A stretch of DNA of 64,000 nucleotides from Latrodectus hesperus (Eukaryota; Arthropoda; Arachnida; Araneae; Theridiidae), in assembly GCA_037975125.1 (NCBI GenBank), contig CM075850.1, positions 127,615,292 to 127,679,291 on the forward strand. Reading direction: 5' to 3'. Of the stretch, positions 4,210 to 52,415 are shown in pieces. Under the pieces are notes generated by a model. That model searched no databases, had not been told where the DNA came from, and was given only the letters and a program-made list of their open reading frames with translations. The number at the start of each line of letters is the position of its first letter. Position 1 is the stretch's first letter. Made by a program: the position numbers and the translations under genes.

Positions 4210-5893
4210 ACAGCGAAACAACAAAAAATATGGTTTGGCAATAGTGCTTGTTGTTATTGTCTTAAATACGAGAAGGAGAGTATTTGTGATTCGGAGTAGT
4301 TCAGGTCTACTGCTAGCCTTTCCTGATATGGTTTATTCAACGTTATCTACTTCATCTGAGATTTGAAAAGATGGTTTTAAGTGATTTAAGAAAAAGGTGT
4401 ATTGTTTGCCATTAGTGTCTAAAATTTTTTTCAGTTCTATTTGTAACTAAATGTGGTCTAGTGTAAAGAGGTGATAAAAGTGAATAATCTTAACCGATCT
4501 TAAAAATACACGATATATCGAAATATTACATACCCATACAGTTTTTAGAGAAGAATTTACATAATATTTTGAATTTACCATGGGTGATTGAATTCAATTC
4601 GCTCACCCTATTACTTAAATTTGACACATAATTAAGTTAATACACTGATTAGTTAAACTACTGGAAACAAGGTCACATTGTAATGTAAGGGTGGTGCAAT
4701 ACACTAGTTGGGCACTAGTTGCCTTTATGTCGTTTTTAAGAACAGTGTTTAAATTAACAATACTACTGGTAAAATTTATGTCCAATTTTTTGATTATGAG
4801 CTTTTAAGGAGAATTTAAAGCATCGGTGTATGTATTCGCTAATGATACCATTACATGAGAATGAAATGGTGAGGTTCGAATTCTATTGGAACCCAACATA
4901 CTAATGAGTTCGTGAAATAGATGAGATTCGAAACTTCTACCTTGTACTGTTGTGATAGTGATCCAAATCTTGAAACCCGTCCATGTACTATGATGAGCTG
5001 CTGTTTATACAGTCATGTCTTCTATCGGAATCACTTCAGGCCATCTTGTATTCTGTCAATTATTGCCAAACAATATTATTTTACTCCAGAAAAAGGAATA
5101 GGTTCAATAAAATCAACATGTATATGGGCAAAGGGAGCATCCAGTGTGGCAAAAGTGCTAATGGATGATTTATTGTGTTATCTTATTTATTGTCATTGCT
5201 CACTGCTGCGAATCATATCTTTAATATGTTTGCACATGCCAGGACAAAGGAAACGCTCCGTGATTAAATGAACAGAAACCGCAATACCTGGACGAGTAAA
5301 AAATATATATAAATTTTCAAATATTTTTTTACTCATACATTTTGCAACAACTGGACGAAAGGTAGCTTGTTATAGGTACATTTCCATACAGGTTAATGTT
5401 CAAGAGGAAAGTAATGTTTCTTTAAATGTGAAGATGTATTCGCAGATAAAAGATTATGTAATTTCCCATCTGTTAACTAAGCCGAGGCGAATTTTTTAAA
5501 AACAAGTACTGAAGTAGATATTTCGAGTATCTCAATACGAGAATGACTCCAGTCTTGTTAGATCCTTCAATCTTGTTAGATACTTTTCAGTAATGAATGT
5601 CAGTGGAGAATTGAGAAATGAATTTCAAGTGATGTAATTGGAGGGGACATCCTTTGTCAGGATTTTGTTTAAATTCATAGCTAAGAAGTTTTTGGTCAGC
5701 AAGTATGACAAAAGAGCTACTTTCTAATATAAGTCTTTATCTTTATTTTACTGTAGAATATATACCATATAACTCACGGACGTAAATGAACCAATTTCTT
5801 TGGGATTTGCTTAATCTAGCTGGATAAAAAGCGATAGGTTACCAATTGCTATTTGATGCTTGCTTTAAAGTACCGCTTGTTGCTACATAAAAT

Positions 5894-5943
5894 CTGAAGT
5901 ATCTGTAGCATATAGTACCACCTATATGCTACAGATATTTCAG
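5894..5943. repeat. Near-perfect 22-bp hairpin inside the Gypsy relic
   Basis: CTGAAGTATCTGTAGCATAT.. (5894-5915) pairs with its complement at 5922-5943 around a 6-base TACCAC loop, with one mismatch. One arm is the Gypsy RNase H TDTSD coding segment, so the other arm arose as a local inverted copy. Confidence 0.85.
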
Positions 5944-6098
5944 AGGTATCTGCCCATAAATATAATTCTGCAGCTAGAATGGAATGCCTTAATAGCCTTA
6001 GCAAACACTTGTGTTGAACTTTTAAAAGAAATATTAGTTTCTTTGTCCCAATTATTTGTATTAATACACATTGCATATTCATTTAGATTTGAAAATAA

Positions 6099-6178
6099 TA
6101 GGTCTAGAATCTAGACCTACTATTCCTCTAGAACCTAGTCTAGAATCTAGATATAGACCTATCATCTAGACTCTAGAT
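6099..6178. repeat. TCTAGA-rich palindromic cluster
   Basis: TAGGTCTAGA-A-TCTAGACCTA (6099-6119) is a perfect interrupted palindrome. It is followed by several further TCTAGA/CTAGAC motifs to 6178, including tagtctagaatctagatatagac. It looks like local slippage or inverted duplication of a short motif. Confidence 0.8.
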
Positions 6179-7029
6179 GAATGAGGTGTTCACTTTCAGA
6201 ACAGGAGGCTATAAGTATGTATTCAATAAATGTGTAAACAAATCGTAAGTCTCTATTTACCTCGATAATACAGCGTTAAAAAGTTAAGGACGGTTTGCAA
6301 AAGTCGAATTGGAGTTGAAAATTTTCAAAAAATCCAAAAAGAGTGCCGACGTCTGTCTAGTGAGCATTAATTGGAATTTGATGAAAGGTTTTAACCAGGT
6401 CTACGTGACTAAGCACTTGTTTGCCATGCAAATTTGTAAGATTAATTATGCAAGGAATTGGATAATGCTGTTTTATAGTTTGTGCATAAGCCTTTTTTAG
6501 GTACCATATGCAAAGGAAAAACGTATTGGTTTTTAGTAGTCTGATCAGGCGAAGTTGAATCTTGTGTTAAATTTCATCTTATATACTTTTTAGAGTTAGT
6601 TCTTAGGCCAGGTGTTAAGTATTCAGTTTTAACTTTTAACTTAATTAAATATAATTATTTAAATAAACTACTATAGTTAGCTGCTTTAAGAGTAAATTTT
6701 TAAAATATCTACACCTTTGTCATTATTAACTTAATACCAAAAACATTTTTTATTTATTCGATAAATAATAATTTTAAAAAAGTTTGAACAATTCGTCATA
6801 AATATATTACTTTACATTCCGCTTTCCATTTAAGACGATTGATTCTACCAGGCAAAATTTTACAGCATTTAATTAATTTCAAGATCTGAAAAATTACTGA
6901 ATAAGTATTGAAACAAAGGCAACTGTACTTACAAATTTTTACGAGAATTCTAATTTCAGTAATTGCAATATAGTTTACTCACCAGTATAAATAATTTATG
7001 ATAGTGAATATATTCAAATTTGCTAATAT

Positions 7030-16207: not shown

Positions 16208-18700
16208 CAGGGGTGGCAAAGACATTTTAGGTAGTCCACGCGACCATCTCGATAATGACCTCGGATATTAACAATTTAATTTATGACTTACGACATAGAG
16301 TTTATGAATTATTTAAAAAAATTTACTACAGTTTACACTTTAAAATATAAAACAAACTGTGCAAAGTAATATAATGAATTTGTTATTTTACAATGGAGAA
16401 TTAAATAGAAACAACTTGACAAAGTGAGATACTTAGATTAAATCCAGTAGCCGGCGCGATGATAGCGACGTGGCGAGTCGACTAGTCCATCCGTCACCCC
16501 CCCTTAAGTTTCAGTTCTTACGTTTCAGGTAGCTCGCTTTCTACCGCACTGAGGCGATAATTTGTTGTTTAATCAACCCTTCCAAAATGACTCGGCCAGG
16601 TTCCAATGCTAAGAGAAGTAAAACATACCATTATCACAATGAGTAGGAAGATGATTTCTTTTTTGTTATGATGAAGAAGAAATGTGTTTGTCTCATATGT
16701 AACTCAAGTGTGGCACTACCAAAAAAGCAACCGTTGAAAGACATTTTAAAACCATGCATTTAAAATACGTTACAGACTTTCCAATCGGTTGTGAACTTCG
16801 AAAAATTAAGTGCATGAATTAAAATCGAATTCACATTTAAAGCAATCGTTATTTTTGAGACCAGGCACCAAAGCTAAAACAGCAACATTGGCTTCATTTA
16901 ATATTACAAAAGATTTAATAAAGCGAAAAAAAACACATTTGAAGTTGGAAAATTGATAAAAAAAGCTTTCTGTAAGGAAGGAGAAGTGCTTTCCAACGAT
17001 TTTAAAAACTAATCTGAAATAATATTGTTAATAAGCAATATTTCTTTGTCGTGTAACACTATGATGCGACGGACTGAAGCTATGAATAATAATTTGGTGG
17101 ATTTATTAAATGATGATTTAAAAGATTGTAATCTACTATCACTTCAATTTGATGAATCGCCGGAAATTAGTGACATTGCACAGTTATGCAATTTTGTGAG
17201 AATGGTTTTCGAAGATATGACTTCAAAGGAAGAGTTATTATCTATAATTTCATTGAAAGGAACAAACAAGGGCCCGATATATCTACAATTTACTTAAAAA
17301 CTTTGTTGACTAAGACAGGATTTCCAATATATAAATTGGTCTCTATTACAACAGATGGAGCTCCAGCAATGGTCGGGAATCGAATTGGTTTTATTGCCTT
17401 TTCCAATAATGATGAGGAAATTCCTAGTTTTACCAGCTATAAATGTATTATTCATCAGCAGGTATTGTGTTAAAAAATACTAAAATCTAATTTTATAATG
17501 CAAATTGCTTTTAAAATCATCAATTCCATCCAATTCAAGAAGTCTTCAGAGACGACAATTTCGAGCGTTTTTGGAAGTAACTGGATCAGAGTACGGAGAT
17601 CTCGTATTGCACACAATCGTGAGGTGGCTAAGCCGTGGTCCTTTTTTAAAAAAGATTTCGTATTCTGTTAATTGAAATTAAAAAAATTTCTACGAATGGA
17701 AGGAGAGCACATTACTGAATTGGAAGATGAGAATGGCTCATGAAACTAGCTTTTCTCTGTGATATCATTGCAAAACTTAACGACTTAAATCTAAATCTAT
17801 AAAGAAAGAATAAATGTTTAACAGACATGGTGAGAGCGATTAAAACTGTCAAAGAAACGTTAAAAAGGGTGCGTCTCACTTAAGAAAACATGAATTGAGA
17901 AACTTCAAAAACATGGAGGAAAAGTGCATCCATAATCCAAACCGAGATTTCGAAGATTTTGCCGAACACTTAGATGTTTGGCTTGAAGAATTTGAAAGAA
18001 GATTCGTTGACTTAACTAGGTTGGAAGAAATACTCAGTTTTATGATATTTCCATTTAATGAAAATGTCAACATTGATGGAGTATCTGAAAAAATAGGACA
18101 TTTAATAGATACCACATCAGTTACGGTCGTGGAAGAAATTATTAAATTAAGATGTGATATATTTCTGAAATCCAGAGCATTTAGCAATACTGACTTTTGG
18201 AAATTAATTTCTGAGGAAACGTTTCCAAATATTTAAAAATTGATTTTGTATTTGAAATCATATTTTGGATCGATATATCTTTGGGAATCTGCTTTTTTAA
18301 CCATGAACCCCATAAAAACCAAACATCGGTCGCGTTTAACAGATGAACATTTAATTTCGTATTTACGCATTGCAATATGCTCATCCCAACCACAATATGG
18401 TAAACTTGTCACACATATACAGTGCCAAATTTCAACTGAACGAAGTGAATAGGATGATCAATTTTTTGATATATGATTACTTTGATTATTTACGTCAGTA
18501 ATTTTTTTGTAAAGGTTAATTTTTTTTAATTAAGTTTTTTTTTGTAAGAAAAATTAGATAATTTACCATTTTTTCTTGTTACTGGAAATGAATATGTAAA
18601 CATATACGTTACGTTAATTTAGCTCCGCCTTTGGTAGACCACCTTCGATTTTTTTAGTGTGGAGTAGACCGCGGAATCCAAAAGTCTGACCCCCCCCCTG
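16208..18700 (+). mobile_element. hAT element (GTF2IRD2/ZBED-like), copy 1, inactivated
   Basis: Ends are CAGGGGTGGC at 16208 and the complement of CAGGGGGGGG at 18700, hAT-style termini. Inside, a BED zinc finger (CVCLICNSSVAL, then VERHFKTMH after a one-base frameshift) lies at 16680-16760. The catalytic region follows at 17025-17470 with LLSLQFDESPEISDIAQLCN, ITTDGAPAMVG and CIIHQQVLC. A middle region spans 17895-18236. The hAT C-terminal dimerisation region reads FWKLISEETFPN, YLWESAFLTM and RSRLTDEHL to 18450. Several stops and frameshifts break it. The closest known family is the GTF2IRD2/ZBED-type (Charlie8-like) hAT transposase. Confidence 0.85.
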
Positions 18701-19283
18701 CATTATACAGTGACTCTTAAAAATCACATTCTAAATTAATATTATTATTATTTTTTGTTTCTGTAATTTATTTGGAAGAATTGCTTTTATAAAATATTTA
18801 AAATTGTACATTAATCCTTACCTTTCTTCATGTTTCATTTGAACGTTTATTTACTTTTAAAATTTTTTAAGGATATTCCATAAATTTGTTAAATATTAGA
18901 AAGTATTGATGTTCACTAGATTTGTAATACTTGAGAAAGTTTCAAATGGTTCATAGAAACTGTTATAATCTTTTTTATCATTCATTTTAATATCAAAATT
19001 ATTATATATGTCCTAGAAATTACAAGATATGGACCAGTATATGGAGGTGAGGTTTCACACTATCAATATGTAAAAATACATGGGAACAAGTTTGCAGTGA
19101 GGGGTAAACATAAACAGATTTTTTACAGTGTCTAGATGTTGAAATAGGATTAAGAGATTGCATAATTGACTCACTTCCTGTGACGTCAAAGTCACATGAC
19201 AAGTACGCTCCACGATTTGTTTACTTTTTCCCAAACCTAATAACACGCTAGATTTCGATTAGATTTTGTACGTGAGTTTAAAT

Positions 19284-22077
19284 ATGGACGATAAAAATTT
19301 ATGTAAATCTAGATATTGTGCAGCATATGGATGCAAAAATGCCAAGTATAAGGCTGATTGCAGAGAAAAATCATTTTTTAGATTTCCCTTAAAGAATCAA
19401 AAACTACTAAAAGAATGGCTCATTAAGTTACGACGAGAAGAATTTTCCCCTTCCCCATGGTCAGTTTTATGCTCTGATCATTTTGAAGAGACAGATTTTA
19501 AGTATGAAAACTTCACGAATCGGCGTTTATTGAAACAAGATGCTGTTCCAAGCAAATTTGTTTTCTCGAAGCCAAAAAATGAACGGCGTGTGATTCGGCG
19601 CCAGCTTCCAGAACAAGGGAATGATGAAAACGAGGATGCCTGTACAACAGAGTAAGTAATTTTGTTTTGCCAGTTTATTCTCTCTATGGAATTAAGTGTT
19701 ATAAAAATTTGCTATATTAAATTAAACAAATATTATATTTTGAAACTTGATATGAATCTAATGTAATTTGACTTTATTATCAAATATTTTTAAGAAATTT
19801 AAGTATGTTTAACATATTTTATGTATATTACCTTAAATGTGAATGAAAAAATTATCATTATCAAAATTAAAATTTATATTAAAAATTGATAAATGCATTA
19901 CAAATTACTGAAATTAATTTTAATTAATAAAATTGCTTACTGTAATATAATAATAAAATAATCACACAATACATATAATGAATGCACATATCCTACTTAT
20001 AAATTATTATTCAAAATATAAATCTTGTAAAAGATAAATGAATCCTCACAAGGAAAAAATTAAGAAAATAATAACAATATAAAAAATATTACTTAAGGTT
20101 CTCTCTTTGGTGGTTATTTTAGCTTTAAATGAATAAGTAATATAGTTTTTTATGGGCTAAAATTACAATTTTTTTCCCTCAGTGAAGAAGGAAATTGAAT
20201 TGTTAATTTTCTAGTCTTTAACTCAACGGTTTATTTGTATCACATATTAAGTGTGGATTTGCATTATTTTGAAATCAGTTTTAAAATGTTTTCTGTATTT
20301 CATAATTACTGATTGAGAATGAAACACTGAATTAAATTCCTTACATAATTATACAACTATTAATTTGTCTTCTATTTGAATACAATAAAGTTAATTTATT
20401 TCTGTAAGCTTGATACCAGACAAATTCCTGCTGTATTATCTTCAAACTATTAATTTTCAATTTAATTATTTTCTAATATATGTCTTGATTCTAAATAACA
20501 CTTAATTTGACCTTAAGTAATGCTGAACATCAGAAACTTTATCTTGTGCTTGCATCTAAATGAATAAAAAAATTTGTTTAGCTTCTTTTTCAGGCACTAA
20601 TATGGATAATAGTTCAGATTGTACTTTAAATGTAGGTTAAATTAGTCAAGTGCAAAATATGAAGAAATGAACACATCAAATTTTTCATTATTACTAAAAT
20701 GAAATGAATTATTTAACTGAGCATTTTTTTATTCTAAAATTGAAAAAAAGGAAAAACTTTTGTGATTAATTTTTGATTTTTTAATTATACATATAACACT
20801 TATATTGAAATTTTTTGTTTTATTTGAGATAAATAACTCTTTTTCAGAAGTTATCCTTTGTCACATTAATTTTTAAAATCAACAAATTATATAAAAAATG
20901 TTACTTTTTGTTTCATTCATTTATATGGCTTAGATATCTAACAAAAATTAATGAGAAAAAACTAAGGACTAAGTTACAATCATCAAAACAGATATTGGTG
21001 AAAATTGACATGTATTTTGTTCCATGATTCATTGACTTTAAAACTATTTAAATATATGTTAATAATATAATTTCTATTATTTTTAGGACCTCTTTGGGAA
21101 ATAAAAATGTCTCAACACAAACTAGTAGCTTCAGTGATATCATTGATGAACTTTCCTTGGCACAAAAAGAAGCTTGTGAACTTAAAAATATCTTATCATC
21201 AAAAGAATTTAAACCAGAGAACATAAATTCTGATGAACAGATGGTAGCAGTTACTGGTTTCACAAAGCAAATGTTTTTTGCTCTGTTTAAATTTCTTAAT
21301 ATTGAAGGAGATTTGATAAAAGGGAAAACATTACGGGCAATTGATCAATTTTTCTTGTTCCTAATAAAGTTGCGTACAGGAATATCGAATGAATTCTTGT
21401 CTTTATTGTTTCATATTTCGGATTCAACTGTTTCAAGATACTTTGTCCACACAGTCGGTATTTTAAATAAAAAATTCAGGATATTAAATATTTGGCCTAG
21501 TAAAGACCAAGTAGCAGAGGCCATGCCATCCCATGTTTCCAGAGAAAATAAGAATTGCCGCGTAATCATAGATTGCACAGAATTCAATATACAGAAGCCA
21601 AGCAATCCAAGAGAACAGCAAATGACTTTCAGCAGTTACAAAAACAACAATACTTTAAAAGGCATGATTGGTATAATGCCCTCTGGAGCAATTACTTTCA
21701 TATCAGACTTATATTGTGGAAGTATTTCTGATAAGGAATTATTTCTTCAGAGTGGTATTATGAATAAATTAGAAGCAGGTGACATGGTGATGGCAGATAA
21801 GGGCTTTCGAATTGAAAAAGAACTGTCAGAAATAAATTGTGTTTTGAAAACACCCTCGTTTTTAAGAGATAAAATACAGTTTCCTGCTGTAGAGCGGGAA
21901 AGCAATACTGTTGTTTCAAATACAAGGGTTCATGTGGAAAGGGCGATTTCCAGAATAAAATACTTTAAGTATTTTGAAGGAGATATACCTTATACGTCAC
22001 TACATAATATTTCTGAAATTTTTTTCATAACATGTAATTTAGTTAATTTTAGAAAACCTTTAATAAAAATAAACTAG
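19284..22077 (+). CDS. THAP-domain DDE transposase, spliced, apparently intact
   Basis: Exon 1 (19284-19651) ends at a GTAAGT donor. Exon 2 (21087-22077) follows a TTTTAG acceptor. The phase-2 junction joins in frame to give 452 residues. THAP spans residues 8-92, with C12, C17, C63 and H66, W45 and W59, and a DAVPS box at 86-90. A helix-turn-helix region (about 205-245; NEFLSLLFHISDSTVSRYF) precedes an IS5/Harbinger-like DDE_Tnp_4 core. The candidate catalytic residues are D285 (IIDCTEF), D360 (MADKGF) and E407 (VHVERAI). THAP would bind element ends and DDE would cleave DNA, in the nucleus. All key residues and frames are intact, so it may be active or recently active. Domestication as a host gene is the alternative. 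AATAAA lies about 75 bases after the stop. Confidence 0.85.
19652..21086 (+). other. Intron of the THAP-DDE transposase
   Basis: A 1435-bp GT-AG intron, AT-rich, with no recognisable coding. A tempting 38-base acceptor-donor pair near 20595-20632 would bring an immediate stop and is not used in my model. Confidence 0.7.
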
Positions 22078-22229
22078 CAATGTCAAGTTTATTTTTATTA
22101 TAAAGGTTTTCTATAACTGTGTGTGTAGCTTTAAACTTTCCTAAACTGTGATTCTAATAAAAGTTTTAAGATTATGTTATGCTTTCTTGCTGAGTAGTTG
22201 CATTTTGCTTTATAAGTTCATATTTTATA

Positions 22230-22751
22230 ACATGCTAATTGTTTTATTTACTAATAAAATGAAATTATGTGTGTATATATCTATATTTAAAATAGTTGAA
22301 GATAATATATTTTTAGTATGAAACTTTTTGTTACTGAAGAAAATATTACTTGGATATTAATAATTCATTTTGAGGAAATACAAAAATAATTTATACAAAT
22401 TAAAAATATGAATTTCATATTTTTTAAGGAAACACATTTTAGAATCACATATTGGTAAAAAATACAAAAAACATGCTAATTGTTTTATTTACTAATAAAA
22501 TGAAATTATGTGTGTATATATCTGTATTTAAAATAGTTGAAGATAATATATTTTTAGTTTTAATATATTTCATATTAAAATTTGTAAGGTTTGATTTTAA
22601 TGGAAAATTTTTAGTATGAAACTTTTTGTTACTGAAGAAAATATTTGGATATTAATATTTCATTTTGAGGAAATGCAAAAATAATTTATATAAATTTCGT
22701 ATTTTTAAGGAAACACATTTTAGAATCACATATTGGTAAAAAATATAAAAA
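22230..22751. repeat. ~245-bp tandem duplication between the convergent genes
   Basis: The unit starting CATGCTAATTGTTTTATTTA at 22231 repeats at 22472. Shared blocks include TTTAAAATAGTTGAAGATAA and GGAAACACATTTTAGAATCA. The second unit carries an extra ~55 bases. It lies in the shared 3' flank of the transposase and exonuclease genes. Confidence 0.85.
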
Positions 22752-22998
22752 AACAAGTCTTTCATTTTTAGCTGTGTAATTTCGAGCTAATAAGTTTGTA
22801 AAGAGATTCACATGTTTCAATAAAACCATTAATTGAAAATAATTAAATTCATTGGGCATTAACGAAAAACATCTGAAATAAATGTGAAGTAAGATTTATT
22901 GGTGACTAAATATTTATTATTACTAACATTGAATTCATAAAGTTGAAAAATCAAATCAAATACTATTTACAAATGAGTTAATGAATGTCATAAATACA

Positions 22999-24123
22999 CT
23001 AGGTGAATAATATAAGAAAATATTTATTGGGATAATGTATAAAGATAAGGAAAATAATAACTTGAAAAAAATTTTTTAATCTTACATCCCAATCTGCCCA
23101 TTGAATTTCATCAAAATAAACAATTTCTTCATGAAAATAGTCTTTTCCATCCTTCTGTAAATACACAACAAAAAGACATTTGTGTAAGTTTGAACAAGCT
23201 AATTGGCACTGGATTTGGGCATAATATTTATGTTGTTTTTTAAGAACTAGTGCACCACTAACAATTTCTAAACAGAAGTTAACTCTAGCAGTGCACAGTT
23301 CATTTAGTGTTAAATTTTCTTTGTTGTAAATTGTTTTAATTTCTATCAGCATCACTTCTGTATTTCCAGGTTTACATAGTAAACCATCAGGTGATGCTGC
23401 TAAATGAGGAAAAACTGGATTAATTATAACTCCAGTTTTTCGTAAAATATAGTTTGAATATTTTTGTTGTATGTAATTTCTTACATAGCTTTCCTTTTCC
23501 AATCCATACCTAACTGCTGGAATAAAGGAAATATCTCTACTTTTATTTTTAAAAATTTGGTAAGCTATTGCAGAATAATCACTCTGTCGACTTATAATTA
23601 ATTTAATGTCTGTTGCAGTAAGTCTATATTTTCTTATTTCATGCCATTCTTGATTGTTTTGCCCAATTGTTCTTTGTTCTATATCTATGCATTCCTCTAA
23701 AGTAAAACTATAATTTTGATGGTAAAATATTATTTCGTTTACATCTAAGTTTGTTTCACCAGTAAAAGGAATGATGGAATTACCAGCATAAACTACAGCT
23801 GGTAAAGGAAGCGTTAAATTTTGTTTAATTTCATTACTCTCTCTAAGAGCATCAAACACTGGTAAACTAAAATCTACAAGGCAATTCCATTTAAATTCAG
23901 TGTTTGATAAGTGTACGTCTTCACACTTGTTACTGAAAATTGCAGATGCTTTAACAGGAACAGTTTTTATGATTTTGGGCTGATGCCATGTTTGGAGCCT
24001 CTCAGTTGGTGCATCATACAATTTCTTTGAAGAATAATCTTCTAATCCTTGCAATAATGCAAACACATGTTTGCAACATGCTGGCATCCCTCCAGCAGCA
24101 CAAGTGCAAGAAGCAGTTTTTAC
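22999..24123 (-). CDS. SWIM zinc-finger / YqaJ-type exonuclease gene, 3' exon
   Basis: A CAG acceptor at 24126-24124 opens a 374-codon exon in frame with the downstream ATG. A SWIM finger lies at residues 6-19 (CTCAAGGMPACCKH: C6, C8, C17, H19). A linker follows, then a YqaJ/lambda-exonuclease core (RLTATD about 167-172, GLEKE about 207-211, AASPDG with D246, IEIK with E261 and K263, YYAQIQCQ about 300-306). These are the acidic and Lys residues expected for Mg-dependent 5'-3' exonucleases. SWIM fingers bind DNA or protein. An internal GTAAGA donor at 23085, with a possible acceptor near 22998, could replace the last ~29 codons by CIYDIH. Upstream exons are not identified. The family pairing with the neighbouring DDE gene supports a transposon accessory role. 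Confidence 0.8.
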   Translation of the reverse strand, partial: VKTASCTCAAGGMPACCKHVFALLQGLEDYSSKKLYDAPTERLQTWHQPKIIKTVPVKASAIFSNKCEDVHLSNTEFKWNCLVDFSLPVFDALRESNEIKQNLTLPLPAVVYAGNSIIPFTGETNLDVNEIIFYHQNYSFTLEECIDIEQRTIGQNNQEWHEIRKYRLTATDIKLIISRQSDYSAIAYQIFKNKSRDISFIPAVRYGLEKESYVRNYIQQKYSNYILRKTGVIINPVFPHLAASPDGLLCKPGNTEVMLIEIKTIYNKENLTLNELCTARVNFCLEIVSGALVLKKQHKYYAQIQCQLACSNLHKCLFVVYLQKDGKDYFHEEIVYFDEIQWADWDVRLKNFFQVIIFLIFIHYPNKYFLILFT

Positions 24124-24180
24124 CTGTAAGAATAAATAAAAAAATGAGTTTTTACCTGTAAGAATTAAATAAAAAAGGTT
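24117..24180. repeat. Tandem 32-bp duplication of a splice acceptor
   Basis: Two adjacent 32-bp units (24117-24148, 24149-24180) each contain the minus-strand acceptor TTCTTACAG|GTAAAAA. The exonuclease exon could start at either. Use of the outer acceptor would add an in-frame stop, so the inner acceptor is preferred. Confidence 0.8.
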
Positions 24181-25270
24181 GACTTAACTTTTCATCGCTT
24201 CAGTGAGTTGTTAAAATTGGATATAAAGCATGCTTCAGATTAATAACTAGGGATTTTACATAAGGCTGACCAACTAACTTTGATAAATACATCAACTGGG
24301 ACATGTTTGGTCACGAAAACAGATATGGGCACTGAAGGTCTTGTCTTTTATTGCGTGGCAATAAGGGAAGGTTGCGTGCCACTAAATTTAGTTTTTATAA
24401 AAAATAATGCAGTAGAGCAATATTTAACTTTTAAATTATAAATACTCAAAGACTGATAAAATATTTTGAAATTTAAAATGATTCCTTACTACTAAATTGT
24501 GGTACGCACCTAACCCATTTTAATATATAAATAAACACAAATGGATACTTAAACATAGGATAAAAATACTATTATGATGTAATTATAATGCTAGATGCCA
24601 TTTTACTTGGTACATCTTAAACAGTTATCATGCAACACCTTTTAGATATTTACTTTACTCTTAAATATTTTCTTCAATATTCGAGCATTGCATCTCAAGA
24701 TTAACAAAATTATCTAAATAACCCAGGTGAAATAAAGGCTCAGACTAACTTGTAAAACATACTAACATTGTGCCAGTAAATTATGTAGACACTAATTACA
24801 TTTAGCAATTCTTCAAAACATGTATTTTTATTTAACTATGCATTTAAAAGTAAAATCTTATTGAACAATTATATTTTGAAGATTGATTTGATGCAATCTA
24901 ATTACTGCATAATGCTTACACAATAACTATAATAAAAATAACATTAATTATCTTTCATTAATAATGATAGTCATATTTTTGTTTCAGGATCTCTTGTAAT
25001 TATTTATGAAAACTAGAAAGAGACATGATACACAGAATTTCTAAAATTAAAGCTCTTAATAATACTTTTTATTCATAACAGAATCAGAAATTCAAACAGA
25101 GTTATTTTTTAAGTATTTAGAGAGAGAGTAATATAGTTTTTGCCGAGTCAACTAAAAATTTCAATATTCAATGAAACTCTCAGGCCTATAATCTTTATTT
25201 ATAATCTTAAAATTATTTATCTTTATTTTAATACATTATTTTTTAAATGAGACTACATTATACATTTTAG
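24181..25270. other. Unassigned AT-rich DNA upstream of the exonuclease exon
   Basis: I expected 5' exons of the minus-strand SWIM/YqaJ gene here. The segment 24240-24400 is less AT-rich but gives no convincing exon or terminal repeat. Confidence 0.4.
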
Positions 25271-25410
25271 AAGGCGTGTTCCGAGGTAATGGAGATAGGA
25301 GAATGCTTCCGTTGCATTCCGATAGTTTGTACCAATTAAATGAGCAGCTGGTACAGATGTTTTTGGAGTATCTGGAGCTGAGCTCCCTCGACCGTTATGA
25401 TATTAAGTGA
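25271..25410 (+). other. Orphan candidate terminal exon
   Basis: A TACATTTTAG acceptor precedes an open frame (entered after two bases) that ends at a TGA at 25408. It encodes 45 residues with balanced composition, including MLPLHSDSLYQLNEQLVQMF and ending LSSLDRYDIK. The composition and GC content differ sharply from the surrounding AT-rich DNA. I do not recognise the protein. No upstream exon was found. It may be a real last exon, a processed fragment or part of an unknown element. Confidence 0.3.
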
Positions 25411-26219
25411 ATTGTTGCAATTATTGTTTTTGCGTCTGATCGTAAATAGAGAAAGAAAGGGCAGAAAGAATCAAGAAAAAAGCAATAATAAAGACTTACT
25501 TTAGTAATTGTTTTTCTCCTTGAATGTTTACAATATCGTAGTTAATGATAGCTTGATAAAAAAATATTTTAAATCATTCTTTTTGCTGATTTTTGTGGAC
25601 AGAATGAGAATAATAGGATGTGACAATTTAAAATTGGCTAAACTCAGACCTCCAATAGGAGTAGCGCTTTTGTCATATATCCTTATCTCCACTTCGATGT
25701 TTTTTGCAAGTATAAGAGCGTGTTAAATCTCCAGTTGTGCTTATATATATATATATTCTATATAATCATTGTATACCCTATTTACAATATATCCAATATA
25801 CTCAAGATGATTTAATTTGTTTTTACTTTTTTTCATTTATTTTTAACCATTTATCCTTCCATTCATTTATCCAATGTTAAAAATTTTTTATAAAAAGGAG
25901 CAATAAACTTAGTGCACCAAAAGGTTATTCCACTTAAACTAATAAAATTTCAGACTGGAGATAGGAGTTCTACTCCAGGCGCTCCGTAAAACAGAAAATG
26001 GTTCCTGGTTCCAGTTGTGCTTTTGGTTCTTCCTTCCTACCACCTCTCTATTCTGATTTCCGAGTTTGTTTTGCTTGTAAGCAAACGTGTTTGCTTATGT
26101 ATGAATTTTTTTTCTAATTTGGTTGTATTTTTGAAAGAAAAAAAATTATTATTTAGAATTGATCTAGTTCTGCTTTTATTTAACTCGTGGAGATTTTTGA
26201 GTTCTAAAGATTAGGTTGT

Positions 26220-26640
26220 CTGTCATTCGGAGTCTCGATGTGTTGATTGAGGCTGTGTTTTTTCAGTGCTCCCGATTCTTCTACAAGGGAACACCGCGTT
26301 CGTGCTTCGGTGTCCCTGCAGATGCTGGTGACTTCTCATTGTTTTTCCAGTGATTGTGTTTTTTATGTGGTCCTGTGATTTCATTTTTTCAACGGGCTCC
26401 GCACCGGTGGAGTAATTTTGTGTTTGTACCAGAAATAGAGACTGGTTTGTGTTGTTCATAAGTGATGTGTGCTCCAGTGAAGTGGTTTTGGACAAAACCC
26501 CCTAAAGACAAGGCCTTCGTACCAAAACTTCTTCCTGGAATGAGCCATCCACACAAGGCTGACCAACGACCTCCTAAAGGTGAAATTTCAACTTCCTGAT
26601 CGACCACTCTTTTCAGTCTCTGTGCGGTGTTGATTTTCCA
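26220..26640. other. GC-richer segment, function unknown
   Basis: About 420 bp of markedly higher GC than the flanks. It contains open frames on both strands, including a 44-codon plus-strand ORF from 26465 (MCAPVKWFWTKPPKDKAFVP to ISTS, Pro- and Lys-rich). It could be an untranslated first exon, an LTR or other element end, or coding. No family was recognised. Confidence 0.3.
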
Positions 26641-26775
26641 CGTGTGTGTGATAAGCCTTGTCTTAAAGTATTTGTTAAGGGTATTGTGTTATTTTAAGAA
26701 ATTTTATAAAAATGCCATTCAAGTGTTCAATTCCCAATTCCCAATCGAAATATGATAGAGTAGCAAAGGTATCTA

Positions 26776-28185
26776 CACTACTGGTCATTAAAATTGCTAC
26801 ACCAGGAAAGCGGCACACCACACACGTGAAATTTGCATGACAGTTATTACTTTCTGTGATATGCAATAGATTATATTTTCAGCGCATTCATACAAAGCAG
26901 GCGACAGTAGCGACATCTTCAATGTGTATAAAACCAGAGATTTGACAGCAGTTTTCTCATACTCAATTTCCGTTTCAACGTTGTTTTCGGCAAAGAAAGT
27001 TGTTGTAATGCCTCGTGTAAGAAGAATGAAATAACCATCAGGACGTGTCTGAATTTGATCGAGGAAGGATTATAGCCTACCGGGATTGCGGTTTATCCTA
27101 CCGCAATATTGCTGGTCGCGTCGGTCGAGACCCCATGACTGTTGGCAGAATATGGAATCGATGGGTTAAGGACAAATATACGGAACGTCATGCAGGATCT
27201 CAGCGACCCCCCATCACTAACAGCAGAGAAGACAGACATTTTATCCACATGGTCACAAGGGATCGTACAGCCACGTCACGAACACTGAGTCGAGAAATGG
27301 AGTCATTTGCAAGGCAACAAGTTTCTGCTAGAGCAGTTCGACGACGTTTGCAGCAGCATGGATTGTCTGCATGGCGACCATGGCTTCGGCTACCATTGAC
27401 GCTGCGTAACAGACAGGAGCAACTTCAATGGTGTGATCAGCGACGAACCTGGACTCGGGAATGGCATCACGTCATCTTTACGGATGAATCTCGGTTCTGT
27501 ATACAGGACCATGATGGCCGCATCCGTGTTTGGAGGCATCGTGGATAACGCGAATTGCCAGCTTGTATTGGACATAGCCATACTGACCCATCTGCTGGAG
27601 TGATGGTATGGGGTGCCATTGGATACACGTCTCGATTACCTCTTGTTCGCATTACCGGCACTTTGAACAGCAACCGTTACATTTCCGATGTGTAAAGGCC
27701 CGTGGCTCTGCCCTATCTTCGAAGCCTCCCTAATGCTTTGTTTCAACAGGATAATGCCCGACCGCATGTTGCCCGTACTGTTCAGAACTTCCTTGATACA
27801 GAACAGGTGCGACTGTTACCCTGGCCAGCACGTTCTCCTGATCTGTCACCAATTGAGAACGTGTGTCAATGGTTGCCGAGCGATTGGCACACCATCACTC
27901 ACCATCCACTACTGTTGATGGACTGTGGCATAGTGTTGAAGCTGCATGAACTGAGATCCCCGTACATGCCATACAATCTCTGTTTGACTCCATGCCTAGG
28001 CGGATAAATGCTGTTATTGCAGCCAGAGTTGGCTGCTCTGGGTACTGATTTCTCAAGTTCTATACATCCTAATTTCCTGTAAATCTAATCACTTGTTCTT
28101 TCCACTATAATGTATGTGTCCAATAAATATATCGTTCTGTTATTTGCATTCCTTCTTGGTGTAGCAATTTTAATGACCAATAGTG
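26776..28185 (+). mobile_element. Tc1-family element, copy A, full length but inactivated
   Basis: A 1410-bp element flanked by TA, with ~33-bp terminal inverted repeats (CACTACTGGTCATTAAAATT... against CACTATTGGTCATTAAAATT...). The start codon at 27008 runs into a stop after eight codons. An open frame then runs from 27045 with a paired HTH (FDRGRIIAYRDCGLSYRNIA) and the first catalytic region (HHVIFTDESRF). A stop follows at 27546. A shifted frame holds QDNARPHVART and WPARSPDLSPIEN. Spacing from DNARPH to SPIE is 34, so DD34E. A further frameshift follows. It is dead, although the catalytic triad is still legible. Confidence 0.9.
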
Positions 28186-33705: not shown

Positions 33706-33984
33706 ATGCATGCAATTAGTTCCAGATACAGGAAACCTAAAGGCAGACTAACGAAACGAAAACTTGCTGTGATTGATTCAGCTCTTAAAAGACAATCAAT
33801 ATTTGCTGAGGAAGCGTTACCAAGGGAAACAGTTGACCAAAAAATTTCTTTTATAGATGTAAATGTTCCAGAATATGTCCATTTACGTAATGATATTCCT
33901 CCTGCATGTGGAAATGAGTATATTCTTATGAATAAAAACTGCGTCTCCAGTCTTCTAAGGAATTTGCCATGCAGTAATTGTACT
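33706..33984 (+). pseudogene. N-terminal piece of a Mutator-like (PF20700-type) transposase
   Basis: The first ATG opens 93 codons. The start is basic (RYRKPKGRLTKRKL), the middle acidic, and the end reads GNEYILMNKNCVSSLLRNLP then CSNCT. The pattern of a basic start, a hydrophobic ...SLLxxLPCxxC ending and a CxxC motif matches my recollection of the first segment of arthropod Mutator-like transposases. It stops where homology to the hAT element begins. The family call is from motif layout only. Confidence 0.35.
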
Positions 33985-35826
33985 TAAAATATACTTCAGA
34001 CTTTCCAACTGGCAGTATACTTCGAAAAGATAAAGTACATGAATTAAAGTCCAATTTGTATTTAAAGCAATCGTTATTTACGAGACCAGGCACAAAAGCT
34101 AAAGCAGTATCATTGGCGTCGTTTAAAATATAAAAAAATTTGATAATAATAATAATAATAATAATTAAAAAAAAAAACATTCGAAGATGGAGAATTGATA
34201 AAAGAAGCTTTCTGTAAAGCGGGAGAAGTGATTTTCAACGATTTTAGAAACAAATCTTAAATAAAATTGTTAATGAACAATATTTCTTTGTTGGATAACA
34301 CTGTGTTGCGACGGACTGAAACTATCAATAATAATTTGGAGGATTTATTAAATGACGATTTAAGAGCTTTTACTTCCTATCACTTTAATTTGATGAATGC
34401 ACGGATATTAGTGACATTGCACAGTTATGCATTTTTGTGTGAATGGTTTTCGAAGATATGACTTCAAAAGAAGAGTTATTATCTATAATTTCATTGAAAG
34501 GACAAACGAGAACCCAAAATATCTACAATTCATTTAAAAACTTTGTTGATAAGACAGGATTTCCAATATATAAATTGGTCTCTATTACAATAGATGGAGC
34601 TCCAGCAATGGTTAGGAATCGACATGGTTTTATTGCCTTTTGCAATAATGATGAGGAAATTCCCAGTTTTACCAGCTATAATTGTATTATTCATCAGCAA
34701 GTATTGTGTTAAAAAATACTAAAATCTAATTTTATAATGCAAATTGCTTTTAAAATCGTCAATTCCTCCAATTCAAGAAGTCTTCAGAGACGACAATTTC
34801 GAGCGTTTTTGGAAGTAACTGGATCAGAGTACGGAGATCTCTTATTGCACACAATCGTGAGGTGGCTAAGCCGTGCTCCATTTTTTTAAAAAGATTTCGT
34901 ATTCTGTTAACTGAAATAAAAAAATTTCTACGAATGGAAGGAGAGCACATTACTAATTGGAAGATGAGTAATGGCTAATGAAACTAGCTTTTCTCTGTAA
35001 AATCATTGCAAAACTTACGACTTAAATCTAAATCTATAAAGAAAGAATAAATGTGTAACAGACATGGTGAGAGCGATTAAAACTGTCAAAGAAACGATAA
35101 AAAGGTATGCGTCTCACTTAAGAAAACATGAATTGAGAAACTTAAAAAACATGGAGGAAAAGTGCATCCATAATCCAAACCGAGATTTCGAAGATTTTGC
35201 CGAACACTTAGATATTTGGCTTGAAGAATTAGAAAGAAGATTCGTTGACTTAACTAGGTTGGAAGAAATACTCAGTTTTATGATATTTCCATTTAATGAA
35301 AATGTCAACATTGATGGAGTATCTGAAAAAATAGGACATTTTATAGATACCACATCAGTCACGGTCGGTGTATTTGAAATCATATTTTGGATCGATATAT
35401 CTTTGGGAATTTGCTTTTTTAACCATGAACCCCATAAAAAACCAAACATCGGTCGCGTTTGACAGATGAACATTTAATTTCGTGTTCACGCATTGCAATA
35501 AGCTCATACCAGCCACAATATGATAAACTTGTCACACATATACAGTGCCAAATTTCAACTGAACGAAGTGAATAGGATGATCAATTTTTTGATATATGAT
35601 TGCTTTGATTATTTACGTCAGTAAATTTTTATTTTGTAAATATTAATATTAAGTTTTTTTTAATAAAAATTAGATAATTTACCATTTTTTCTTGTTACAG
35701 AAAATAAATATGTAAATATGTACGTTACTTTAGTTTAGCTCTGCCATCGGTAAACCGCCATCGATTTTTTAAGTGTGGAGTGATTTTCAACGATTTTCGC
35801 GGATTCCAAAAGTTTGACCACTCCTG
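33980..35826 (+). mobile_element. hAT element, copy 2, 5'-truncated with an internal deletion
   Basis: Close to the hAT copy at 16208-18700 from just after the BED finger. It carries NNLEDLLNDDLR, the MVFEDMTSKEELLSIISLKG frame, ITIDGAPAMVRNR, CIIHQQVLC, and the 35064-35380 middle region. The stretch coding for the start of the C-terminal dimerisation domain is deleted around 35366. The 3' end (complement of CAGGAGTGGTCAAACTTTTG) is at 35826. The BED finger and 5' terminus are replaced by the Mutator-like piece. It is dead. Confidence 0.8.
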
Positions 35827-36959: not shown

Positions 36960-37203
36960 ACAAAATGCTACGTGTACCTTCCTGGGGCTTGAGCAGCCAC
37001 CAGGCGCGTCGGCAGGTGTTGGATCACCAAATGTCTTGTAGGAATGACAGGATAGCCTTGAATATAGAATCAGAGGCCGCGAACCAGTTCCCGTAAACCC
37101 AGGTGTTATGCGATTCGTGCCTAGGGCTAATTGGCACCGCGGTATTGGTGTCTTAACGGAGCCTCTAGTTGCGTGGCGAACTTCTAGAGTAATTTGCCTT
37201 GCC
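36960..37203 (+). mobile_element. Non-LTR retrotransposon fragment, third copy
   Basis: Inverted relative to 51612-51875 and similar through TACCTTCCTGGGGCTTGAGC, AATAGAATCAGAGGCCGCGA-like text, GGGCTAATTGGCACCGCGGT and AACGGAGCCTCTAG. Homology ends at AGGCAATGC, before the zinc-knuckle 3' part of the other copies. Confidence 0.75.
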
Positions 37204-37270
37204 CAGTAACTCAGGCAATGCCAGTAACTTGGTTCTTTGACGATTTGCTTGACGCCAAGATCTAACTAAC

Positions 37271-38993: not shown

Positions 38994-39001
38994 TATACAC
39001 A

Positions 39002-40403
39002 CACTACTGGCCATTAAAATTTCTACACCAAGAAAGCGGCACACCACACACGTGAAATTTGCATAACAGGTAGAACTTGCTGTGATATGCAAATGATTAG
39101 ATTTTCAGCGCATTCATACAAAGCAGGCGACAGTAGCGACATATACAATGTGTATAAAACCAGAGATTTGACAACAGCTTTCTCATACTCAATTTCCGTT
39201 TAACGTTGTTTTCGGCAAAGAAAGTTGTTGGAATGCCTCGTGTAAGAAGAAGAAATGCCTATCAGCACGTGTCTGACTTTGATCGAGGAAGGATTATAGC
39301 CTACCGGGATTGCGGTTTATCGTACTGCAATATTGCTGCTCACGTTGGTCGAGACCCCATGACTGTTATCAGAATATGGAATCAATGGGATCAGGACAAT
39401 CATACGGAACGTCATGCAGGATCTCAGCGACCTCGCATCACTAACAGCAGAGAAGACAGACATCTTATCCGCATGGTCACAAGGGATCGTACAGCCACGT
39501 CACGAACCCGGAGCCGAGAAATGGAGTCATTTGCAAGGCAACAAGTTTCTGCTCGAACAGTTCGACGATGTTTGCAGCAGCATGGATTGTCTGCAAGGCG
39601 ACCATGGCTTCGGCTACCATTGACGCTGCGTAAAAGACAGGAGCGACTTCAATGGTGTGATCAGCGACGAACCTGGACGCGGGAATAAAATCACTCATCT
39701 TTACTGATGAATCTCGGTTCTGTATACAGGACCATGATGGCCGCATCCGTGTTTGGAGGCATCGTGGAGAACGCGCATTGCCAGCTTGCATTGGACAACG
39801 CCATACTGGCCCATCTGCTGGAGTGATGGTATGGGGTGCCATTGGATATACGTCTCGATCACCTCTTGTTCACCTTACCGGCACTTTGAACAGCAACCGT
39901 TACATTTCCGATGTGTTAATACCCGTGGCTCCGCCCTATCTTTGAGTCCTCCCTAATGCCTTGTTTCAACAGGATAATGCACGACCGCATGTTGCCCGTA
40001 CTGTTCTGAACTTCCTTGATACAGAACAGGTTCGACTGTTATCCTGGCCAGCACGTTATCCTGATTTGTCACCAAATGAGAACTTGTGGTCATTGGTTGC
40101 TGAGCGATTGGCACGCCATCACTCACCATCCACTACTGTCGATGAACTGTGGCATAGTGTTGAAGCTGCATGGACTGAGATCCCCGTACATGCCATACAA
40201 TCTCTGACTACATGCCTAGGCGGATAAATGCTGTTATTGCAGCCAGAGGTGGCTGCTCTGGGTACTGATTTCTCAAGCTCTATACATCCTAATTTCCTGT
40301 AAATCTAATCACTTGTTCTTTTCACTATAATGTATGTGTCCAATAAATATCGTTCTGTTATTTGCATTCCTTCTTGGTGTAGCAATTTTAATGACCAGTA
40401 GTG
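39002..40403 (+). mobile_element. Tc1-family element, copy B, full length but inactivated
   Basis: Same family as 26776-28185 with the same inverted termini. The transposase start is clean here (MPRVRRRNAYQHVSDFDRGR at 39233). The N-terminal two HTH regions and a basic segment are open to 39688, where TGG has become TAA next to a one-base deletion just before the FTDES catalytic motif. The C-terminal part from 39961 reads FQQDNARPHVART and ends LTTCLGG, with the DD34E spacing kept and SPNE in place of SPIE. One stop plus one frameshift are the main visible lesions in the transposase. Confidence 0.9.
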
Positions 40404-50889: not shown

Positions 50890-52415
50890 GGAGATTCGGT
50901 CGGGAGATTTGTGTTGAAGCTCGCAGTGGACTGACTACCTAAGATCTTGGATGACGAAATCCTGCAGGTGGCCATTGAGGGGAACAGTAGTCAACTATGT
51001 GGTGAATTTGCCAGACTATTTAACGTTTCTGGTAAAACGGTTAGAATTCATCTGCACCACTTCTTCTTCTTCTTCTTCTTAAAATTGAGTTTGTATGTCA
51101 TTGGGCACCTCTGCTTTTATCAGCATTTTGTACCATTAACTCCAAACCCAATGTTTCCTAGTTCCAATTGCTCGGGTCACCCACTTTAATAATAAAGTCC
51201 GATAACCCTTTAATGGAGTCTAGGTGCAACTCTCTAGTATGGATGAAGCCTAAAGAAGTTAATTTAGGGAGGGCAAGAGCTTCACATTCGTAAATGACAT
51301 GCTCTGCCGTTTCCTCTTGCATATGACATTTCCAGCAGATAAGGTCTTGCTGAAACAGTCCCATCTGGTCAGAAAGTCAGTCATGCTAGGAATAGCTTCC
51401 CGACTTTCACCAGAAGATGGTTTAGAGGTCATTTCTACCTCAAGTGAAGGATTCATTGCTGCCCCTTTACAAGATTGCCTCTGAGTTCCCTTGTCTTTTT
51501 CTGCAAGGTCTGCTTTAGAGGCTTCACCTGCAAATGCAGAAAGGTTTGTTACTTCCTGTGTCTTTTCACCCACAAGATAACAATTAAAAAGCTCAGGTAA
51601 TATAAGTCCACCCAGCATTGCCTGAGTTACTGGGCAAGGCAAATTACTCTAGAAGTTTGCCAAGCATCTAGAGGCTCCGTTAAGACACCAATACCGCGGT
51701 GCCAATTAGCCCTAGGCACGGATCGCATAACACCAGGGTTTACGGGAGCTGGTTCGCGGCCTCTGATTCTATATTCAAGGCTATCCTGTCATTCCTACAG
51801 GACATTCGGCTATCCACCACCTGCCGACGCGCCTGGTGGCTGTGCTCAAGCCCCAGGAAGGTACACGTACCCCCTGGTTCCAGGCATCTGCACCACTTAG
51901 GTAAGATGTAAAAGCTGAACGAGTTTCTCGCACGCTTTTGGAAGTCCATAAGGAAAAGTGAGTGGCAGTCTGTTTATCTTTGCTTTCTCACCATTTTCAA
52001 TCCAGTGATGACCAGTGACGAAGTGTCTCCCAAAGGTTCCAAGCAATGATTGTCTCCCCAGGATACAATCCTGCACAGCGCAAGACCATCTGTGCAACCT
52101 TACAAGATTATGCTTTGTGTCTGATGGGCTTGTCGTCAAGTTCATTACAAGTTACCACCAACAGGCCAAACGGTCAGTGCGGACCTGTACTCGCAGCAAC
52201 TTGAACGTGTTCGACAGACTTTGTGCCATACTCCTTACTCACCTAATCTTGCAGCATCAGATTAATACCTCTTTCGTTTCTTAGACAATCAACTTCGTGG
52301 AAAATTCTTCACCAATTCGATTAGCGCCAAGCACTCACGGTTCTTTGCGTCCAAGAATACCGGAAAAATACAACAAAAAGTCTCTCATTTATCTTGTGGA
52401 ATATTCTCCCGACAT
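50890..52415 (+). pseudogene. Mariner (irritans-like) transposase relic, split by a non-LTR insertion
   Basis: The left part reads LDDEILQVAIEGNSSQLCGE and FARLFNVSGKTVRIHLHH. After the insert it resumes LGKM.KLNEFLAR. Farther on, ADLYSQQLERVRQTL runs into HTPYSPNLAASD, then LFRFLDNQLRGKFFTNS and RFFASKNTGKIQQKVSHL. The DNARPH segment between QTL and the PYSP motif is missing, an internal deletion. Stops and frameshifts are frequent. Confidence 0.8.
51061..51884 (-). mobile_element. 5'-truncated non-LTR retrotransposon inserted in the mariner relic
   Basis: CATCTGCACCAC occurs on both sides (51049-51060 and 51885-51896), a perfect 12-bp duplication of mariner sequence. On the minus strand the element runs from TCTFLGLEHSHQARRQVV through AGEASKADLAEKDKGTQRQ to ICWKCHMQEETAEHVIYE, a Cx2Cx8Hx4C motif of ORF2 C-termini. 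It ends in (GAA)n. Frameshifts make it inactive. Confidence 0.88.

Follow-up and report, generated by a model that had tools for sequence, protein, structure and literature searches.

Here, we identify with high confidence a very recent copy, truncated on the right, of a multi-copy ISL2EU-group DNA transposon (PHIS superfamily) that was mobile until recently. The copy lies in a 64,000-nucleotide stretch of the genome of the spider Latrodectus hesperus; this whole stretch, which lies on contig C1 of the 1.64 Gb genome searched, is called the window below. Our confidence covers the identification and not the role of the nuclease that the element encodes. The retained part of the element occupies 19167-25196 on the forward strand, about 6.03 of the ~6.97 kb of a whole copy, and is common to copies with unrelated left flanks. 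An earlier note on this DNA had described a possibly intact element at 19266-24123, pairing a THAP-DDE transposase with a SWIM/YqaJ exonuclease. Its assignment to ISL2EU holds, on the grounds of the ends, the 2-bp duplication, the empty target site and the gene content. Its boundaries and its suggestion of intactness have to be given up: the window copy lacks the right end and exon 1 of the nuclease.

The ends of the element are defined only through comparison of genomic copies. A genome search with 1,001 bases of the left part, in which 40 of 95 candidates were scored (making the counts lower bounds), gave at least 40 matches, four of them at full score, the window included. Twenty of the 39 non-window matches were compared with the window (L017, L019, L021 and L024-L028 through local alignment only), and most match it from 19164 on, with unrelated sequence in the flanks outside. 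Eleven of these 20 were extended rightward and, together with C3, make up the 12 copies discussed here, a set that favours the best-preserved. Whole copies measure 6,970-6,973 bases including their AAT and ATT borders (C16a, C10a, C10b, C67, and C9a, whose first five bases read N), while C4a (6801) and C202 (6730) are shorter, their alignment breaking in the region between the convergent genes where the window has an imperfect direct duplication (22229-22752, spacing about 241-298). Both the 452-residue transposase and the 469-residue nuclease are encoded by 7 of the 12 copies, which differ pairwise by 1-9 substitutions. The full pair was not obtained from the remaining five: C9b (transposase whole, nuclease start not found via an exact motif), C1b (nuclease whole, transposase acceptor not found), C5, C12 and C3. 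The window copy itself shows zero substitutions against C16a over 6,033 aligned bases, and zero against C67. A 931-base query from the right terminus (40 of 160 candidates scored, the counts again being lower bounds) gave at least 43 match rows, at least 11 of them covering the whole query at 99-100% identity. Two of the copies behind these 11 rows, L042 (element positions 4554-6973, 99.9%) and L043 (1235-6973, 99.6%), are young and left-truncated, the left part being absent within the stretches examined. These comparisons point to a family that is young, multi-copy and until recently mobile, and whose copies elsewhere in the genome are probably coding-complete and mobile.

Alignment of the flanks of the copies, which the earlier note had proposed, yielded the termini and the target-site borders. 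The terminal repeats are TGACTCACTTC (TGACTCAcTTC) on the left, at 19167-19177 on the forward strand of the window, and, read inwards, GGACTCAATTC (GGACTCAaTTC) on the right, so that the element ends TGACTCA.../...TGAGTCC, with borders AAT-TGACTCACTTC and GAGTCC-ATT. The left border is AAT in 11 of the 12 copies (the twelfth reads N) and the right border is ATT in 11 (one has ATA); in the window, 19164-19166 holds the target A and the left copy of the AT duplication. C16a sits in a repeat that has two further copies in the window, at 51310-51884 (reverse strand, 97.8% alike) and 36969-37221 (forward strand, 95.3% alike), and both of these paralogous sites read GGGCT-AATT-GGCACC without an element. 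Since AATT occurs once in these empty sites and AT occurs twice in C16a, the insertion produced a 2-bp duplication within A|AT|T, the pattern described for ISL2EU in the literature (PMC4482050). The duplication is thus shown for one insertion, by two paralogous empty sites, and read from the borders for the others. Junction-spanning paralogues of C202 and C5 (72.7% and 78.5%) were too diverged to serve as clean empty sites. On gene content and on this duplication, the element is a member of ISL2EU.

Inside the ends, a 16-base motif, GTCACRTGACAAGTAC, is present in inverted orientation near both termini, its counterpart close to the right end of whole copies matching at 15 of 16 positions; when single bases were shuffled 300 times, the local alignment containing it was matched or surpassed in 3 cases. 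We consider it a likely candidate for the transposase-binding site; in the window it reads GTCACATGACAAGTAC (19191-19206, forward strand). The left end (19167-19188), which precedes the start codon of the transposase by about 100 bases, also contains TGACTCA and TGACGTCA, which we take to be the sequences of AP-1 and CRE sites.

The transposase gene (19284-22077, forward strand) is predicted to comprise exon 1 with the THAP zinc finger (19284-19651), a GT-AG phase 2 intron (19652-21086) and exon 2 with the helix-turn-helix and DDE catalytic domains (21087-22077). This is the sole in-frame GT-AG join found, and it gives a stop-free product of 452 residues, as the earlier note had argued for THAP and DDE. 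The join is supported because relatives are annotated as single proteins with THAP, HTH and DDE domains; the best of them, from Araneus ventricosus, is 58% identical over 98% of the query. Domain profiles likewise confirm the placement of the THAP, DDE and YqaJ domains, with Pfam matches to THAP (PF05485, E 3.7e-18), HTH_Tnp_4 (3.1e-13) and DDE_Tnp_4 (5.1e-40). The presumed catalytic triad D, D, E is invariant in 15 aligned proteins, and the window protein is identical to that of the whole copy C16a.

The convergent nuclease gene is incomplete. Its second exon (22999-24123, reverse strand; 374 residues and a stop) carries a SWIM-like finger and a YqaJ/lambda-exonuclease domain (E 6.2e-14 in the window exon, 7.7e-14 in the full protein). 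The gene had been thought to begin at 24123; that base follows a splice acceptor, however, and no start codon is found there. In whole copies the ATG lies in exon 1, which encodes 95 residues at positions 6481-6765 of the 6,973-base unit, within the last ~0.9 kb that the window copy has lost. Spliced in frame to the exon at 24123, exon 1 yields a predicted two-exon nuclease of 469 residues, 94% of whose length aligns with a protein of Uloborus diversus at 46% identity. For both products, the closest named proteins come from spiders. The window retains only part of the intron (24124-25196, reverse strand), and nothing resembling exon 1 was found among minus-strand open frames in 24127-27000. 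At 24097-24160 an imperfect duplication of 32 bases gives rise to another splice acceptor (TTCTTACAG|GTAAAAACT), which lies 32 bases upstream of that of the nuclease and would shift the frame if used.

The break itself falls at 25196/25197, with element on its left and, on its right, low-copy host sequence starting ATT. Past 25196, where the window sequence departs, the element goes on in all 12 copies that extend this far, and the lost continuation has no match anywhere else in the window. No convincing pair of terminal repeats was found within the window alone, because the right end is missing. Lacking a normal nuclease and one end, the window copy should not move by itself; both reading frames and both ends, which together make an element autonomous, are found in other copies and not here. 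The window also illustrates that two conserved open frames side by side may appear intact although the mobile unit is broken.

How might the right end have been lost? One possible though doubtful route is interrupted gap repair after excision, in which synthesis from the left would have halted at 25196 and been joined to the old right flank. The post-break sequence does start with ATT, in which the AT duplication and a T would be expected had the loss extended precisely to the former cut site; TATAATCTT, which immediately precedes the break, is repeated after it, as could happen in such a repair; and the zero substitutions suggest that the loss was recent. Against this, we estimate that ATT would occur by chance in A+T-rich DNA in a few per cent of cases, the young left-truncated L042 and L043 have no AAT at their breaks, and the only other match of more than 400 bases to the right flank (C7, 85%) stops short of the break. 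A search with the right flank found no paralogue spanning the break. Retention of the outer target border as a general trait of one-sided truncations was also considered and set aside, the window copy being the only case among three examined. Misassembly at 25196 is a far less likely source of the truncation: repeats of several kilobases that are nearly identical pose difficulties for assembly, and C9a adjoins a run of N, but the sequence to the right of the break is low-copy and free of N as far as 26000.

We regard it as highly improbable that the copy in the window is intact and autonomous. The identity of its transposase with that of C16a and its open second nuclease exon are what such an element would show, yet homology to other copies ends at 25196 where the 12 compared copies go on, the missing piece, which holds the first exon of the nuclease as well as the right terminal repeat, is absent from the window, and the assembly contradicts intactness. 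Least probable of all, to the point of being negligible, is that the two genes are domesticated host genes derived from a transposon, for although their frames are open and THAP-DDE genes have been domesticated elsewhere, the search for further copies with shared ends found seven other near-identical ones at unrelated sites, and these, along with the target duplication and the empty site, exclude domesticated single-copy genes.

Several points weigh against the identification as a recently mobile ISL2EU element or against parts of it. The terminal repeats are short and imperfect, and the left one starts TG, not GG; the published description gives GG as the usual start (PMC4482050), its word being "usually", and the right repeat here does start GG. 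Only a single insertion proves the 2-bp duplication. The SWIM finger scores 15.8 bits, below the Pfam cut-off of 19.6, even in the full protein, but its CxC...CxH motif is kept in 9 of 12 aligned relatives (the remaining three are without that part), and profile comparison gives a match to ZSWIM8 at E 0.0036. Further, expression, splicing and movement are predicted here from sequence, and the nuclease role from a modelled fold.

Selection on the nuclease within the family is likewise not demonstrated. Among substitutions common to at least two of five older copies, 8 of 12 are silent in the transposase (P 0.002), and 7 of 18 in the nuclease (P 0.10, not significant). Private changes of the older copies are silent in 17 of 42 cases for the transposase and 10 of 37 for the nuclease, the expected silent share being about 0.23. 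As the silent excess of the transposase also appears in private changes, it is not confined to shared ones and the test is weak, and the weak signal in the nuclease cautions against overconfidence in either of the roles considered below.

What, then, might the two proteins do? Given the domains, the ends and the target site, the THAP finger of the transposase would bind the inverted motif near the termini, and the enzyme would excise the element and insert it at AATT, cut there with a stagger of 2 bp. For the nuclease, structure comparison of the model indicates a fold like that of lambda exonuclease, LHK-Exo and mimivirus R354, although residues 32-124 are modelled with low confidence and the matches say little on residues 1-120. 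Residues aligned with E/D/E-x-K, which we take to be the active site of the lambda-exonuclease (YqaJ) fold, are kept in ten aligned proteins. Both the fold and the catalytic-type residues are present in the model, and activity is predicted. The least certain part of our explanation, and one that we favour only tentatively, is that the protein acts as an exonuclease of the lambda type, digesting 5'-to-3' and tethered to DNA through its SWIM finger. By resecting the broken donor site or the element ends, it would direct repair toward homologous copying, through which the lost copy would be regained.

A somewhat less likely alternative is that the nuclease is mainly an accessory DNA-binding partner of the transposase, like the Myb-like protein of Harbinger, with nuclease activity secondary. 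Other PHIS groups have a Myb/SANT partner in place of YqaJ (PMC4482050), and Harbinger transposition in vitro requires both genes (PMC9179366). A pure DNA-binding role would not need the active-site-aligned residues kept in ten proteins, an argument limited by the conservation of the E-x-K glutamate, which falls below 90% when 15 proteins are aligned. We favour resection over the accessory role. Going beyond resection as such, we think it rather unlikely, though worth stating, that the family is mobile today and that its SWIM-exonuclease is a resection factor turning cut-and-paste excision into copy gain through forced homologous repair of the donor. If this were true, young copies with one end missing would represent donor repair that had failed.

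The earlier note had called a transposon with its own exonuclease unusual and its role poorly understood. The second part stands, as the functions of extra reading frames in PHIS elements, the YqaJ frame of ISL2EU included, are stated to be unknown (PMC4482050). As to the first, the same description already includes the exonuclease in ISL2EU. Our literature search on the role of such nucleases in transposons found nothing on ISL2EU beyond PMC4482050 and PMC9179366. With near-identical full-coding copies, defined ends and target, and recent insertions, the family offers a practical system in which the need for a lambda-type exonuclease in excision, insertion or donor repair can be tested in an animal transposon.

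Other elements lie nearby or are entangled with the family. L026, L027 and L028 (mutually 91-99% alike) were considered as an ISL2EU subfamily, being about 91-93% alike to it over 1.6 kb, and rejected: they belong to another, apparently non-autonomous transposon with a unit of about 4.93 kb (L026:2361-7291) and terminal repeats CCCAAGTAGCA, which has taken up some 1.6 kb from the 5' part of ISL2EU, including the THAP exon. In L041 an ISL2EU copy, with AATTGACTCA at its left end, is inserted in what is presumably a transposase gene of the IS1595/Merlin type. Within the window, a ~1.9-kb repeat, which we assume to be hAT-like, occurs at 16760-18665, some 500 bases left of the ISL2EU copy, and at 33984-35781 (about 90% alike); the two open frames of the former have no Pfam match at 0.001. 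Tc3/mariner-like copies at 26775-28007 and 39001-40227 are about 92% alike over 426 compared bases, their transposase frames split in pieces.

Among known systems, the nuclease resembles lambda exonuclease, LHK-Exo and mimivirus R354 in modelled fold and likely active-site residues; these are viral or bacterial, and to our knowledge none is fused to a SWIM finger. PIF/Harbinger elements share a related DDE transposase and a two-gene layout, and differ from the element here in their Myb/SANT partner gene and TWA duplication (PMC4482050). Spy, the sister group of ISL2EU, has a related DDE transposase and an A+T-rich target, with a single open reading frame, the target AAATTT and no duplication (PMC11304231, PMC4482050); two open reading frames and a 2-bp duplication rule out assignment to it. 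The family may already be catalogued in Repbase or Dfam, and a literature search on ISL2EU in spiders found no paper. ISL2EU as described by Han et al. (2015, PMC4482050) is the closest counterpart, with a THAP-HTH-DDE transposase and a separate YqaJ reading frame in animal hosts, an AT duplication within A|AT|T and, as on the right here, terminal repeats starting GG. The present family differs in the greater length of its whole copies (about 6.97 kb, the mean for the group being ~4.84 kb), in its left terminal repeat starting TG, in the SWIM-like finger fused to its nuclease, which the parts of that paper available to us do not mention, and in the seven near-identical full-coding copies found in one genome.

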